Positions 2,175 through 46,576 are shown, numbered from the stretch's first letter. The stretch: DNA of 64,000 bases from Acidobacteriota bacterium (GCA_030697165.1 JAUYQQ010000021.1:1-64000), one strand, 5' to 3'. Program-made: numbers and translations. Notes: generated by a model from the letters alone, not told the origin.

Positions 2175-3113
2175 ATGAGAAGGAGTGCCCTTTGTCTGCT
2201 GTTCGTCCTGGCTTCTGCCGACGTCGCGAACGCGCAAACTTACCAGGATCTGCGGATTCAGCTCGAGGCGTACGTGTGGTGGCCAGACGGAGGCGAGAAA
2301 CCGGCCGGCGTCAGCAGAAACACGGGCCCGGTGGTCATCGGCGCTCCGGCGCGAAGCACCTTCTCGCTTGGAGACGCGTGCGACAGGTTTCAGGTGAGTT
2401 CCGACGACTCTGTGATCGACGGTGCGGTCACCGTCTGGAAGATCGAGACCACCGCCGTTCGTGTCGTTGGCAACGCCGTAACGTTCCGACTGCGGTGGGT
2501 GCGCCTGGCCGTGGGCCTGCAGATGGAGCAGTATTCTTTCGAGTCCGGAACCGGAACCCGGATCCCAGAGGAGGTCGAGCTAACGCTACGTCCAGGGGAG
2601 TCGTGGCCAGTCGATCCTGTGCGAGTCCCGCCAGGGGCAAAGACGACTCATGGACGGCCTTGCGCCGGCGAAGCGTCGATTCGGGTCTCGGTGGAGAACA
2701 ACCCCTGGGAGGAAGAGGAGCGTCGCCTGGTCGTGGCCGACCTTTGGCTGGTCGAGCGGCTTCCGGACGGCGGTGAGGCGCAACGCGGCGGTCCGATCTC
2801 CGTGAGGGGGTTGCCCAATCGCCCCTTCCGCTTCTACTTCGACAGCATCGTCGAATCGAAGATCGCACTCGATCTGTACGGCATTCTCGTGGCGCGGCTG
2901 GGGACCGATGCAATATTCGTTACCATCGAAACACGTAGCCGCTGGGCGCCCGGTCCGCAGAATATTATGGGGCCGCAGCAGTCAGTGACATCAGATATCG
3001 AGGTGAAGCCGGCAGAAACCGTCGAGATCCGCCTGCCGCTGCTCGGTGATCACGCCGGCCCATTTGCCAAGCGCGCCTATTCGATCAGGATCCGCGTGCG
3101 CCAGCTCCGCTGA
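2175..3113 (+). CDS. Secreted protein of unknown function in sigma-factor operon
   Basis: 312-aa protein. ATG 2175 is preceded by GAGGAGGA at 2163-2170, which decides this start over an in-frame ATG further upstream. Residues 1-21 (MRRSALCLLFVLASADVANA) form a classic signal peptide ending in ANA before QTYQD. The mature part is rich in beta strands and polar residues, with no recognised domain; it has one early Cys (GDACDRF) and one later (GRPCAGEAS), which could form a disulfide. It is third after the sigma and probable anti-sigma genes, so it may be a sensor, ligand or product of that system. I do not recognise the family. Confidence 0.6.
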   Translation: MRRSALCLLFVLASADVANAQTYQDLRIQLEAYVWWPDGGEKPAGVSRNTGPVVIGAPARSTFSLGDACDRFQVSSDDSVIDGAVTVWKIETTAVRVVGNAVTFRLRWVRLAVGLQMEQYSFESGTGTRIPEEVELTLRPGESWPVDPVRVPPGAKTTHGRPCAGEASIRVSVENNPWEEEERRLVVADLWLVERLPDGGEAQRGGPISVRGLPNRPFRFYFDSIVESKIALDLYGILVARLGTDAIFVTIETRSRWAPGPQNIMGPQQSVTSDIEVKPAETVEIRLPLLGDHAGPFAKRAYSIRIRVRQLR

Positions 3114-41812: not shown

Positions 41813-44422
41813 ATGTCACTCTCACTTGCGCTGGCCATAGCGGCTGCGGCAGGCACTGCCGTTGGCGTGTTCGCCGATTCCCTGTGGATGTCGCCGATCC
41901 GTTGGCTGTTGGCGATTGCCGCGGTCGCGACGTTCCTGTGCGCCTCCCGCCAACGCCTGGCCTGGGCTCGTCGCAGCGGGTTGGTCGGTCTCGGCGCCGG
42001 GTGCGCGCTGCTGGCGTCGGCGGCCGAGCAGGCGGCCCTTCATTCGCCGCTGCGCACGCTGCTCGAACAACGCCTGGGCGGATTCGCCATTGAAAGCGCC
42101 GGCGCCCCGCGCCTCGACACGCCGATCGCGATTGAGGGCCGGCTGCTGGCCGATGCCGCTCTCACCGACAGCGGGGCGCTGCTGCGTCTGCAGGTCGAGC
42201 GGGTGTGGATCGGGCCGTGTCCTGAGGCGGTATTGGGCGGCGTCTCGCTGACGGTGACCGGCGCCCTCGCGGCGGAAGCGATGCGCGAGTGGCGCGCGGG
42301 ACGCCGGATCAAGGCGCCCGCGCTGTTGCGCCGGCCGGCGCGCTACTTGAACGCCGGCGTGCCGGACCAGGAGCGGCTGCTCGCGAGGCGGGGGATGTCG
42401 CTCGTGGGATCGGTCAAGAGCGCCGCGCTCGTGGAGGTGACCGGCCGCGGCCGTTGGTTCGACGAGTCAGCGGCGTCGGTGCGGGCCTCGGTCAGGCGGG
42501 CGATGGCGCGCCACGTGACTGTTCGCGACCCGCAGTCGGCGGCGGTGGCAACCGCGATCCTGATTGGCGATCGCGGGTCGCTCGACCGCGACGTCGAACG
42601 GCGTCTCCAGGAGGCGGGCACCTACCACGTGATCGCCATCTCCGGCGGCAACATCGCCATCCTGGCGGGGCTGATCCTCGGAGCACTGTGGTGGCTGCGC
42701 ATTCGCGACGGCTGGGCCGCGGGGGCTGCGGTCGCAGTGTTGGCGTGGTACGCCTTCGTCGCCGGTGGCGGACCATCCGTGACCCGGGCTACCGTCATGG
42801 CGGCGATCTACTTGTCGCTGCGGATGATCGATCAGCGCACCGCGCCGTCACATGCGATGGCGCTGACCGCGGCGGCCGTGCTGGTGGTCACGCCGCTGGC
42901 CGTGGCCGACGTCGGCTTCTGGCTGACCTTCGGCGCCACCGCCGCGATCGTAGTCGGCACCACGCGTGTCGGTCCTGCTCTTCAGGCCCCACCCGCCGCA
43001 CCCGCCCTACCCGCCCCACCTGCCTGGCTCCGAGGCCCACTCCTGCTGATCGTCGCCTCCGCCTGCGCCGAGGCGGCGTTGATGCCGATCGGCGCTCTTG
43101 TCTTCCAGCGGGTCACGCTGGCCGGTCTCGTAGTGAACCTGGTCGCCGTGCCGTGCATGGCCATCGTGCAGGTGGCGTCGATGGTCACAGCCGCGCTCGA
43201 TGCCGCTGGCGCCGACAGGGTGGCGACTCTCGCCGGCCTGGCCACGCATCTGGCCGTCCGAGGCCTGATCGACAGCGCGACACTGGTGGACATGGCGCCG
43301 TGGCTCACCTGGCGCGTGCCCTCGCCGTCGCTGCTCGTGGTCGCCGCGTACTACATCTGTTTGATCGCCGCCGTTGTCCACCACGAAGGACACGAAGTGA
43401 ACCACGAAGGACGCGAATCAATAACCTTTGGAATACAAAAAAGTCTTCTTCGTGTGCTTCGTGGTGGCTCTTCGTGTGCTTCGTGGTTGGCATTCCTTCT
43501 GTTCCTATGGATAGCGATCGCGCCGCCGACATTGGCGCGGCAATTCGGCGATGGCCGTCTTTACCTCACCGTCATGGACGTGGGGCAGGGCGATGCCATG
43601 CTGGTGACCCTGCCGAACGGCCGCACGCTGATGGTCGATGCGGGCGGCGTGTCGCTGCGCGGCGACTTCGACATCGGCGATCGCGTGATCGGCCCGGCGC
43701 TGCGCGCCAGGGGCATCGTGCGCCTCGACTACCTCGCCATCACCCACAGCGATCCCGATCACATTGGTGGCGGGGCGTCCCTGGTGAAGGACTTCACGCC
43801 GCGAGAAGTGTGGGCCGGCACGTTTGTCGCCAACCACGAGCCGACGGTTAAGTTGCAGGGCGCGTCAGACCGCAACCGCTCGGCCTGGCGATGGCTGCAG
43901 CAGGGCGACCGCCTGGAGCTCGGCGGCGTCGAACTGCGCGTCCTCCATCCACCGTTGCCCGACTGGGAACGCCAAAAGGTAAGGAATGACGACTCGCTTG
44001 TGATCGAGTTGCGCTATGGCCAGGTGTCGATGCTGCTGACCGGCGATATCGGCCGGGAGGTGGAGCAGGCGCTCAGTCCGACGCTCGACCTGCTGCCGAT
44101 CGTCGTCTTGAAGTCCCCGCACCACGGCAGCGGCACGTCGAGTTCACAGGCGTTCCTCGACGCCGTAAATCCCGACGTGGTGGTGATCAGCAACGGCCGT
44201 GGGAATCCATACGGTCATCCAGTGCCACACGTGTTGGAGCGCTACCGCGGTTCAGGCGCTCAGGTGCTCCGTACGGACCAGGACGGGCAGATCGAGATGT
44301 CGACCGACGGCCGAGGCCTGGACGTCCGGACGTTCACCGGCCGCCGGCTTGCGGTGTCACAAAGGCAACCACGAAGGACGCGAAGGACACGAAGAAAATC
44401 AATTAGGAGGTGCCCATGTTGA
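41813..44422 (+). CDS. comEC: ComEC/Rec2 competence DNA channel
   Basis: 869-aa inner-membrane channel that passes single-stranded DNA into the cytoplasm during transformation. Order: N-terminal DUF4131-like region, Competence domain of many helices (HVIAISGGNIAILAGLILGALWWL and AVLAWYAFVAGGGPSVTRATVMA), then a C-terminal metallo-beta-lactamase domain (LTVMDVGQGDAMLVTLPNG, THSDPDHIGGG, LKSPHHGSGTSSS). Two repeats interrupt it in frame: a 9-nt array at residues ~391-403 (Ala/Pro-rich) and a 113-bp palindromic element at ~522-559 before the last helix. Its final ~20 residues are translated from the left inverted repeat and Shine-Dalgarno of the GxxExxY cassette. pilT in the window belongs to the same process. 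Confidence 0.92.
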   Translation: MSLSLALAIAAAAGTAVGVFADSLWMSPIRWLLAIAAVATFLCASRQRLAWARRSGLVGLGAGCALLASAAEQAALHSPLRTLLEQRLGGFAIESAGAPRLDTPIAIEGRLLADAALTDSGALLRLQVERVWIGPCPEAVLGGVSLTVTGALAAEAMREWRAGRRIKAPALLRRPARYLNAGVPDQERLLARRGMSLVGSVKSAALVEVTGRGRWFDESAASVRASVRRAMARHVTVRDPQSAAVATAILIGDRGSLDRDVERRLQEAGTYHVIAISGGNIAILAGLILGALWWLRIRDGWAAGAAVAVLAWYAFVAGGGPSVTRATVMAAIYLSLRMIDQRTAPSHAMALTAAAVLVVTPLAVADVGFWLTFGATAAIVVGTTRVGPALQAPPAAPALPAPPAWLRGPLLLIVASACAEAALMPIGALVFQRVTLAGLVVNLVAVPCMAIVQVASMVTAALDAAGADRVATLAGLATHLAVRGLIDSATLVDMAPWLTWRVPSPSLLVVAAYYICLIAAVVHHEGHEVNHEGRESITFGIQKSLLRVLRGGSSCASWLAFLLFLWIAIAPPTLARQFGDGRLYLTVMDVGQGDAMLVTLPNGRTLMVDAGGVSLRGDFDIGDRVIGPALRARGIVRLDYLAITHSDPDHIGGGASLVKDFTPREVWAGTFVANHEPTVKLQGASDRNRSAWRWLQQGDRLELGGVELRVLHPPLPDWERQKVRNDDSLVIELRYGQVSMLLTGDIGREVEQALSPTLDLLPIVVLKSPHHGSGTSSSQAFLDAVNPDVVVISNGRGNPYGHPVPHVLERYRGSGAQVLRTDQDGQIEMSTDGRGLDVRTFTGRRLAVSQRQPRRTRRTRRKSIRRCPC
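42987..43022 (+). repeat. Nonamer array inside comEC
   Basis: Four 9-nt units of the type CCCNACCCG (CCCCACCCG, CCGCACCCG, CCCTACCCG, CCCCACCTG), read in frame as an Ala/Pro-rich loop between membrane helices. Confidence 0.85.
43378..43490. repeat. Palindromic CCACGAAGGACACGAAG element inside comEC
   Basis: About 113 bp: left arm with two units (CCACGAAGGACACGAAG, ACCACGAAGGACGCGAA), an AT-rich centre (ATAACCTTTGGAATACAAAA), right arm with two reverse-complement units (CTTCGTGTGCTTCGTGG twice). No stop in the comEC frame. It shares its units with the terminal repeats of the GxxExxY cassette. Confidence 0.9.
44365..44394 (+). repeat. Left inverted repeat of GxxExxY cassette
   Basis: 30 bp starting GCAACCACGAAGG and ending GACACGAAG; 29 of 30 bases are complementary to the repeat at 44843-44872. 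It encodes the last part of ComEC (QPRRTRRTRR). Confidence 0.92.
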
Positions 44423-44814
44423 CCCGAACTACTCCGGCTTGCTCTCCTGAGGTCGAAGCGCTCGTCACTCGGACAATCGGGTGCGCTCTCCGAGTCCATC
44501 AGGCGCTCGGCCCTGGCTACACAGAGGGGCTGTATCACGACGCCATGGCCATCGACCTCGCGCTTGAGGGGCTGCGATATGAGCGTGAGGTTAGCATCCG
44601 CGTGATGTACCGTGGCCAGCCTCTCAGGCCCCAGCGGCTCGACCTCGTCGTCGACGGACAGGTTGTCGTTGAACTAAAGGCTGTCGAGAGGCTGGACCGG
44701 ATTCATCAGGCACAGCTGTTGTCGTACTTGAAGTCGGGCGGATTCAAGGTGGGACTTTTGATGAACTTCCATTCGGAGTTTCTGAAGTCGTCGCTGCGGC
44801 GTTTCGTCCTATGA
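44416..44814 (+). CDS. GxxExxY protein, putative PD-(D/E)XK nuclease
   Basis: 132-aa protein. The naming motif is G34-YT-E37-GL-Y40. Read as a RecB-type nuclease it has E37 (motif I), D76 in RLDLVVDG (motif II), E86-L-K88 in VVELKAV (motif III, ExK), and Q100-LLS-Y104 (QxxxY): the full PD-(D/E)XK plus QxxxY set. Start ATG 44416 is 5 nt after a perfect AGGAGG (44405-44410), which decides it over a GTG two codons upstream. It overlaps the comEC stop by 7 nt. The family is widespread and uncharacterised. Inverted 30-bp repeats on both sides suggest a mobile cassette. The nuclease role is an inference from motifs. Confidence 0.85.
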   Translation: MLTRTTPACSPEVEALVTRTIGCALRVHQALGPGYTEGLYHDAMAIDLALEGLRYEREVSIRVMYRGQPLRPQRLDLVVDGQVVVELKAVERLDRIHQAQLLSYLKSGGFKVGLLMNFHSEFLKSSLRRFVL

Positions 44815-44836
44815 GGCGTGACTGTCCTCACGAAGG

Positions 44837-45697
44837 TCAATTCTTCGTGTTCTTCGCGTCCTTCGTGGTTGCTTTAGCAATCACCCAGTGCGCCTCGAGC
44901 TGCGCCAGCGTCAGGTCGCGCATCCGTTCGCCCTTGCTCGTCACCTGCCGCTCCACATCGTCAAACCGCCTCTGGAACTTGTCGTTGGCCAGGCGGAGGG
45001 CCGCTTCGGGTTCCACGCCGAGCTTGCGGGCCAGGTTGGCCACGGCGAACAGCAGGTCGCCCAGCTCTTCTTCCGCCTCCGGCGACTTCGGCCCGAGGGT
45101 CTCGACCGCCTCGCGCAGCTCGCGGGTCTCTTCGTCGATCTTGTCGAGCACGTCCTCGGGCTTCACCCAGTCGAAGCCCACGGTCGCGGCGCGCGTGGCC
45201 AGTTCGTAGGCGCGCAGCAGCGACGGCATCGACCGCGGGATGCCGCTTAGCAGCGTCTTGTCGGGCTCGCCGGCGTCACTGCGTTCCTGCTTCTTGATGT
45301 CCTCCCACCGCTCTTTCACCTCGCGCGGCGTGAGCGACGCCTTGCCCACCTCCGCTGAAGCTACGGTGGGCAGGCCCTCGGCATCGAACACATGCGGGTG
45401 GCGGCGGATCAACTTGTCCGAGATCGCCTGGATGGAGTCGGCGATCGAGAAGCGCCCCTCCTCCTCGCAGATCTGCGCGAGGAACACCGCTTCGAACAGG
45501 AAGTCGCCGAGCTCGCCCTTCAGTTCCTCGTAATCCTCGCGGTCGAGCGCGTCGAGCAGCTCGTAGGTTTCGCCCAGCACGAACGGGCGCAGGGTCCGCA
45601 CCGTCTGCTGGCGGTCCCACGCGCAGCCATGCTCGGAGCGCAGCGTCCTCATGATCTCGACCAGTTGCTGAAAGCGCGCGCCCGCCAGTTGGCTCAT
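44837..45697 (-). CDS. mazG: Nucleoside triphosphate pyrophosphohydrolase MazG
   Basis: 286-aa all-alpha NTP pyrophosphatase converting (d)NTPs to NMPs; it acts in nucleotide-pool cleaning and the stringent response. Two MazG domains: CAWDRQQTVRTLRPFVLGETYELLDAL..EELKGELGDFLFEAVF (ExxE..ExxD magnesium site) and a second ELREAVETLGPKSPEAEEELGDLLFAVANLAR. Start ATG 45697 (MSQLAGARF); an upstream extension overlaps the divergent gene and is rejected. Residues ~110-118 (PTVASAEVG) come from a small palindrome, and the C-terminal KATTKDAKNTKN is the translated right repeat of the GxxExxY cassette. Confidence 0.95.
   Translation of the reverse strand: MSQLAGARFQQLVEIMRTLRSEHGCAWDRQQTVRTLRPFVLGETYELLDALDREDYEELKGELGDFLFEAVFLAQICEEEGRFSIADSIQAISDKLIRRHPHVFDAEGLPTVASAEVGKASLTPREVKERWEDIKKQERSDAGEPDKTLLSGIPRSMPSLLRAYELATRAATVGFDWVKPEDVLDKIDEETRELREAVETLGPKSPEAEEELGDLLFAVANLARKLGVEPEAALRLANDKFQRRFDDVERQVTSKGERMRDLTLAQLEAHWVIAKATTKDAKNTKN
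44843..44872 (-). repeat. Right inverted repeat of GxxExxY cassette
   Basis: CTTCGTGTTCTTCGCGTCC.. to ..GGTTGC, complement of 44365-44394 with one mismatch. It encodes the last residues of MazG (KATTKDAKNTK) on the minus strand. Confidence 0.92.
45344..45371. repeat. Palindrome GCCCACC..GGTGGGC inside mazG
   Basis: Seven-bp arms around TCCGCTGAAGCTAC, in frame in the mazG region between the first catalytic domain and the linker. It shares CTCCGC..GGCTACGG-type phrasing with 46507-46556. Confidence 0.7.
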
Positions 45698-45724
45698 GCG
45701 CCATGCTAACATTCCATCTCTTAG

Positions 45725-46576
45725 ATGAAGGCGACCGTCACCGTCCTTGGCAGCGGCACCTCGCACGGCGTGCCCATGATCGGTTGTACCTGCGCGGTAT
45801 GCCAATCAACCGATCCGCGCGATCGCCGCTTGCGGCCCTCGATTTACATCGCGGTCGAAGGCGGGCCAGCGATCCTGGTCGATACCTCGACCGACCTGCG
45901 CCAGCAGGTGCTGGCCAACCGCATTGCGCGCGTCGACGCCATCCTGTTCACGCACAGTCACGCCGATCACGTCATGGGTTTGGACGATGTGAGGCGGTTC
46001 AATGTGATGCAGGGCGGGGCGATTCCGGCGTTTGCTGATGAGCGGACCGCTGCGGATTTGCGGCGCACCTTCTCGTATATTTTCAGTCCGCCCAGCGAAA
46101 AGGGTGGCGGCATTCCAGAGGTGGCCCTCACCACGGTGACCGGGCCTTTCAACATTGGCGCGGTACGCGTTCAGCCGGTGCCGCTGTTCCACGGCTCGCG
46201 GCCGATCCTGGGATACCGGCTCGGGACGTTCGCCTACCTGACCGACTGCAATCGCCTGCCGGACGAGGCATGGCCGCTGCTCGAGGGCCTCGACGTCCTC
46301 GTGCTCGATGCGCTGCGTCACAAACCGCATCCCACCCACTTCACGGTGGCGGGCGCGCTCGAAGTGGTGGCGCGGCTGAAGCCGCGCCAGACCTACTTCA
46401 CGCACATGTGCCACAAGCTGCCGCATGCGGAGACCAACCGGTCGCTGCCGGCCGGCGTGGAGCTGGCCTATGATGGCCAGGTGGTGACGATCGACGTGGG
46501 GGATGAATCCACCTCCGCTGAGGCTTCCTCCTCCGCCAAGGCTACGGCGGACAAGCCGGCGGATCAATGGACGTAA
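45725..46576 (+). CDS. PhnP-like metallo-beta-lactamase-fold hydrolase
   Basis: 283-aa MBL-fold phosphodiesterase-like protein. Metal motif FTHSHADHVMGLDDVRRFN (HxHxDH near residues 77-82), later PVPLFHG, YLTDCNRLPDE with the bridging Asp, and a distal THMCHKLPH. An early CTCAVC pair (residues 20-26 of the GCTCAVCQS segment) is the zinc-site motif typical of the PhnP group. The C-terminal ~18 residues (STSAEASSSAKATADKP) are low-complexity and encoded by palindromic repeat sequence. It overlaps ribF by 10 nt. PhnP hydrolyses cyclic ribose phosphates in C-P lyase pathways; no phn genes are here, so the substrate is open. Confidence 0.85.
   Translation: MKATVTVLGSGTSHGVPMIGCTCAVCQSTDPRDRRLRPSIYIAVEGGPAILVDTSTDLRQQVLANRIARVDAILFTHSHADHVMGLDDVRRFNVMQGGAIPAFADERTAADLRRTFSYIFSPPSEKGGGIPEVALTTVTGPFNIGAVRVQPVPLFHGSRPILGYRLGTFAYLTDCNRLPDEAWPLLEGLDVLVLDALRHKPHPTHFTVAGALEVVARLKPRQTYFTHMCHKLPHAETNRSLPAGVELAYDGQVVTIDVGDESTSAEASSSAKATADKPADQWT
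46507..46556 (+). repeat. Palindromic repeat at the 3' end of the PhnP-like gene
   Basis: Contains ACCTCCGCTGAGGCTTCC and TCCGCC-AAGGCTAC-GGCGGA (46532-46551), translated as STSAEASSSAKATADK. Confidence 0.75.

Follow-up and report, generated by a model that had tools for sequence, protein, structure and literature searches.

In the REPIN-RAYT system a nuclease-type gene is accompanied by inverted palindromic repeats, many gene-less palindromes are dispersed over each genome, and the repeat group is tied to the type of the protein (Bertels and Rainey 2011, PMC3116915). Free-standing homing endonuclease genes, described from phages, lie beside essential genes and are apparently replaced while the flanks are kept (PMC10448857). 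The palindromic elements of Rickettsia are dispersed as well and can occur in frame inside protein genes (PMC10969869). Nuclease domains of the Cas4, lambda-exonuclease and RecB type share the PD-(D/E)XK fold and an E/D/ExK/QxxxY motif set. For GxxExxY proteins, which are widespread, no known function was found; the open library searched gave no account of what they do or of their flanking repeats, only mentions in passing. The locus studied here lies in a window of 64,000 nucleotides from an Acidobacteriota bacterium.

A GxxExxY gene between inverted unit arrays

The gene (44416–44814, plus strand) encodes 132 amino acids and belongs to the GxxExxY/PDDEXK_3 family of predicted PD-(D/E)XK nucleases, with 124 bits to TIGR04256 and 125 bits to PF13366 compared with curated cut-offs of 35 and 22. 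The reading frame starts with an ATG at 44416, with an alternative GTG start listed at 44410, and is preceded by the Shine-Dalgarno sequence AGGAGG (44405–44410, plus strand). Residues E37, D76, E86xK88 and Q100xxxY104 (E39, D78, E88, K90, Q102 and Y106 in a 134-residue numbering) are invariant across all eight GxxExxY genes of the source genome and invariant or at least 90% conserved among 60 relatives. Gene, motif set and perfect ribosome binding site are thus present as described in the first-pass annotation. The AlphaFold2 model is confident (pLDDT 91.9) and adopts a PD-(D/E)XK fold. Its nearest PDB structure is the Cas4 protein SSO0001 (Z 10.2), followed by BamHI (Z 8.0); Hjc and others match at background level, and a sequence search of the PDB with the protein returned no relative. 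Predicted fold and motifs are compatible with catalysis, short of proof. PF13366 was the sole Pfam match within the cassette, and no DDE, serine, tyrosine or HUH transposase was detected there by the same search. Matches to PADLOC models were weak and partial (E 0.002 or worse), those to PHROGs were weak, and a search of a phage collection gave no match.

The left arm (44362–44396) consists of three 9-nt units (CACGAAGGA/CGCGAAGGA/CACGAAG), and the right arm (44841–44875) is their inverted copy. The pairing of 44367–44396 with 44841–44870 at 29 of 30 positions, reported earlier, was reproduced and extends to 35 nt with 94% complementarity. The inverted-repeat score of 30 compares with at most 15 at 59 control positions of the same spacing in the same 10-kb locus. 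Both neighbouring genes run into the arms: the last codons of comEC (41813–44422, plus strand; PF03772 and Lactamase_B) are translated left arm and those of mazG (44837–45805, minus strand; PF03819) translated right arm, as had been claimed and as the reading frames ending at 44422 and 44837 bear out. The gene-less palindrome noted before within comEC is equally real; the repeat search placed it at 43381–43486, with units of the same family as the window arms. It sits in frame and is decayed or absent in relatives, like the Rickettsia palindromic elements.

The 17-mer CCACGAAGGACACGAAG occurs 85 times in the 5.39-Mb source genome with up to two mismatches, compared with one occurrence of the reversed control. 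Most copies stand in inverted pairs with under 100 nt between them; among the matches listed, the single inverted pair with arms about 0.5 kb apart is the one in the window, enclosing the GxxExxY gene. Many of this genome's gene-less palindromes (L009–L038) begin right at stop codons, with junctions such as ctaaCCACG and ttaaCCACG, which gives the impression of placement at gene ends; each of their arms contains two 17-mers. In another genome, palindromes follow each other head to tail every 160–165 nt or so, as if tandemly amplified (G059:C62:17733–18468 and G059:C74:36723–37562).

The convergent comEC-mazG junction is conserved, and about 16–17 of the 61 GxxExxY genes of the order occupy it, in several families (G000, G011, G013, G020, G023, G036 and others). 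Within the genus of the source genome, G001 carries a deletion-damaged gene between the arms, G005 has a palindrome that lacks the gene, and traces of a single arm are seen in G003, G008 and G002. The junction is clean in several relatives that are more distant. The identity of GxxExxY proteins at this site tracks that of comEC moderately (Mantel r 0.45, p=0.0002), indicating that inheritance there is largely vertical. Shared occupancy together with decayed and gene-less remnants marks the cassette as an old resident with a decay series, in which a palindrome can persist once the gene has been lost. The site is old and repeatedly occupied. A young insertion is ruled out by the shared occupancy and the remnants in sister species, which contradict the recent arrival of a unit of about 0.5 kb between two older genes proposed in the first-pass annotation.

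Inverted repeats, unit types and dispersed palindromes across genomes

Inverted repeats were scored without gaps within 400 nt of each gene, a score of at least 16 being counted as strong. Strong repeats flank 102 of 141 GxxExxY genes; of 5,810 control positions taken from the same loci, 33 are so flanked. In the source genome and its relatives the figures are 47 of 61 genes and 20 of 3,112 control positions, in other phyla (Planctomycetota, Verrucomicrobiota, Chloroflexota, Geobacter, sphingomonads and others) 55 of 80 loci and 13 of 2,698; scores below 16 were obtained for the remaining 14 and 25 copies, respectively. The cross-phylum sample was found with a single query protein and is therefore biased to the clade of that protein, nearly all of period 8. 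For comparison, 1 of 25 mazG genes was flanked by an inverted repeat. The survey proposed earlier, whether such repeats flank these genes or are as often missing, thus came out in favour of flanking, and bounding of the GxxExxY gene by inverted repeats is confirmed as general across bacterial phyla.

Six of the eight GxxExxY genes in the source genome are flanked, each by a different sequence: CACGAAGGA, CGCGAAGA, CACAGAGGA, CACGGAAA, CAGGAGGT-like units and a longer palindrome of 60 nt. One copy adjoins an apparent type I restriction specificity gene, as read by eye. Arms around GxxExxY genes nearly always comprise two to four short units with a period of 8, 9 or 11, and the units look alike, with a common CRC-NN-A-R pattern. 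A deep clade (L106, L112, L123) has long arms of 34–80 nt, two of them of the GTCTCTTGA type, which are not unit arrays. Near relatives of the protein occur in distant phyla. Six matches were found on plasmids, and the four inspected by eye, from Bacteroides, Sphingomonas, Gemmatirosa and Bernardetia, all have unit arrays around the gene. On the Gemmatirosa plasmid (L270, approximately 2290–3030) the gene has a complete palindrome on either side instead of a half-palindrome.

The unit varies from copy to copy in step with the protein tree, across phylum borders. Placed on a tree of 138 proteins, unit types require 22 changes compared with 62.7 after shuffling (minimum 56), and 8 compared with 32.9 if only the proteins from other phyla are taken. 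Many of the branches in this tree of short proteins lack resolution, so that the counts show clustering and not a detailed history. Arms resemble each other within a locus even where orthologous loci differ in unit, as do those of G011 (CACGGAG) and its tree neighbour G009 (CACGAAG). DNA homology between copies from different phyla has a sharp boundary: right ends peak sharply 40–55 nt beyond the gene, at the arm end, and among 1,276 short matches 2.7% reach more than 10 nt past the inverted repeat on the right and 0.2% on the left. Unit type and protein type are thus shown to be inherited together across phyla. Their co-inheritance is compatible with an action of GxxExxY on the palindromes but does not prove it.

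Dispersed repeats were counted in 60 genomes, a set that includes many fragmented assemblies. Genomes with GxxExxY have a median of 53 generic three-unit repeats, and genomes lacking it a median of 1 (Mann-Whitney p=5e-7, phylogeny ignored); for the reversed-pattern control the medians are 3 and 1. Equal abundance in genomes lacking the family, which the first-pass annotation had named as counting against its proposal, was therefore not observed. Five genomes without the gene are exceptions (G048 with 315 repeats, G022 with 79, G033 with 74, G055 with 28 and G019 with 14); the gene may have been lost from such repeat-rich genomes, or it may be missing from the assembly. Agreement of the dispersed units with the unit of the genome's own gene was found for CACGAAG (p=0.01) and was not significant for CACAGAG (p=0.16). 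As predictors of repeat load, GxxExxY reached t 4.2, PF05635 t 3.3 and Y1_Tnp/RAYT t 1.5. RAYT genes are accordingly a poor predictor and were rejected as the mobiliser of the palindromes.

PF05635, a four-helix bundle family of 23S rRNA intervening-sequence proteins, is unrelated to GxxExxY and served as comparator. Among the 60 relatives, 26 of 30 PF05635 genes (L238–L267) are flanked by inverted arrays compared with 0 of 86 control positions, many of the arrays being built from 7-nt units such as CAGTAGC and CGGGATT. This suggests that one small gene within inverted arrays is an arrangement of a broader class. Tentatively, GxxExxY and PF05635 might each define a widespread class of elements that consist solely of a small gene and the inverted arrays around it, with short units specific to the class (8–11 nt and 7 nt, respectively). 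They would be a categorically new bacterial mobile cassette, able to read, and perhaps also to write, the tandem-unit palindromes that belong to it; we regard this as conceivable, with the balance of probability somewhat against it.

Exchange of cassettes at the fabD-fabG junction

Starting from a Sphingomonas copy between fabD and fabG, 34 sphingomonad loci were compared. Cassettes occupy 25 of them, seven have short empty spacers, and two (L298, L301) hold another, unrelated insert of about 1.25 kb. Four cassette types occur, CGCGAAG, CGCGGAG, CGCAGAG and CGCAAAG, with left and right arms in agreement. In the 25 occupied genomes the unit type maps onto the GxxExxY tree with 4 changes (12.7 after shuffling, minimum 9), whereas the tree of fabD and fabG, with 12 changes compared with 12.7, shows no relation to it. 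Pairs of differing unit type share 93–95% identity in the flanks and 68–75% in the cassettes; in the closest pairs of the same type the cassettes are 77–96% identical. For L275/L276 and L282/L289 the identity returns to 96–100% beside the right arm and amounts to 91–92% in the last 100 nt of fabD. In the remaining pairs the two sequences differ also in the spacer beyond the arms, but not in the flanking genes.

With the unit type tied to the nuclease phylogeny and the drop in identity located at the outer arm ends or close to them, arm, gene and arm have been replaced en bloc at this junction, whatever the driver. The repeat-bounded cassette as a unit of REPIN/RAYT-like layout, as first proposed, gains support from this exchange. 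No target-site duplication was evident in the cassette end sequences; a close pair of empty and occupied sites was sought for comparison at this junction and not found, the seven short empty sites being too diverged from the occupied ones.

Proposed mechanism and comparison with known systems

Most relatives tested have the gene between inverted repeats, and at one site the whole repeat-gene-repeat box has been swapped; this has the appearance of a very small mobile cassette of an undescribed type. The reading that we favour, and hold to be somewhat more likely than not, is a minimal selfish cassette of arm, GxxExxY gene and arm that behaves like a free-standing homing endonuclease gene and is guided by its repeats. 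Catalysis, repeat recognition and movement are what we infer for it. The PD-(D/E)XK protein would recognise its own unit array, whether the repeats are in duplex form or folded into a hairpin or cruciform, and would cut palindromic or rival-cassette sites. A cassette-bearing donor would then serve the cell as template for repair of the break, and the arms would be the ends. Gene-less palindromes would be relics after gene loss or non-autonomous copies mobilised in trans.

Exchange between conserved flanks could also be passive. A host-serving gene such as a defence or repair nuclease, kept under diversifying selection, would then be swapped by homologous recombination, and the arms would be regulatory hairpins or terminators travelling with it. 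The fixed junctions, the largely vertical look of the comEC-mazG copies, the gene-less palindromes abutting stop codons and the copy beside the apparent restriction specificity gene (read by eye) all agree with such swapping. It leaves unexplained, however, why tens to hundreds of dispersed palindromes go with gene presence, why unit and protein match across phyla, and why breakpoints fall at the arm ends with the DNA of the flanking genes unchanged, and we consider it rather unlikely. A transposon with terminal inverted repeats, in which GxxExxY is the transposase, the arms are the ends and the gene-less palindromes are MITEs, would fit the inverted ends and sharp homology boundary, the gene-less copies, up to eight copies per genome, and the near relatives in distant phyla. 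The end sequences without a visible target-site duplication, the change of unit family from copy to copy within one genome, the repeated occupation of the same sites and the gene-less copies with two 17-mers per arm, which are not simple cassette deletions, make this quite improbable.

The palindromes might instead be moved by another system, RAYT/Y1 transposases or PF05635 elements, with GxxExxY as a passenger caught inside. The source genome does have six Y1_Tnp genes, and the presence of PF05635 also goes with repeat load. Y1 presence adds little to it, however, with a median of 22 repeats in GxxExxY genomes that lack Y1; PF05635 copies have 7-nt units of their own, and a passenger would not match unit to protein, so that we give this reading very little credence. 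That a small gene merely happens to lie in a repeat-rich intergenic region could be imagined for a source genome with so many repeats; it is refuted by the frequency of flanked genes relative to control positions (102/141 and 33/5,810) and has a negligible probability.

For the favoured repeat-guided cassette, the link to type-specific arrays suggests a function of the GxxExxY proteins that can be tested, and in many phyla it points to these proteins as candidate mobilisers of a class of orphan palindromes. With several types at one site, the sphingomonads offer a system ready for testing genetically whether a lone PD-(D/E)XK nuclease can drive cassette exchange.

To our knowledge, free-standing homing endonuclease genes have neither inverted unit arrays at their borders nor MITE-like palindromes. 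GxxExxY has both and differs from them in this respect, and its cleavage is presumed; a fixed site and exchange with flanks retained were found at fabD-fabG, as for the phage genes (PMC10448857). Like the Rickettsia elements, the palindrome at 43381–43486 stands in frame in a protein gene; sequences and hosts are unrelated, and the portion of that source considered here describes no nuclease gene as partner (PMC10969869). The Cas4, lambda-exonuclease and RecB-type nucleases resemble GxxExxY in predicted fold and motif set, whereas GxxExxY is a stand-alone domain of about 115 residues with no sequence match in the PDB. With REPIN-RAYT (PMC3116915) the cassettes share flanking and dispersed inverted palindromic repeats. 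RAYTs, however, are tyrosine (Y1/HUH) transposases, a type for which the cassette gave no Pfam match, whereas GxxExxY is of the PD-(D/E)XK type, its arms are tandem units of 8–11 nt, and its cassettes recur and are swapped at fixed sites.
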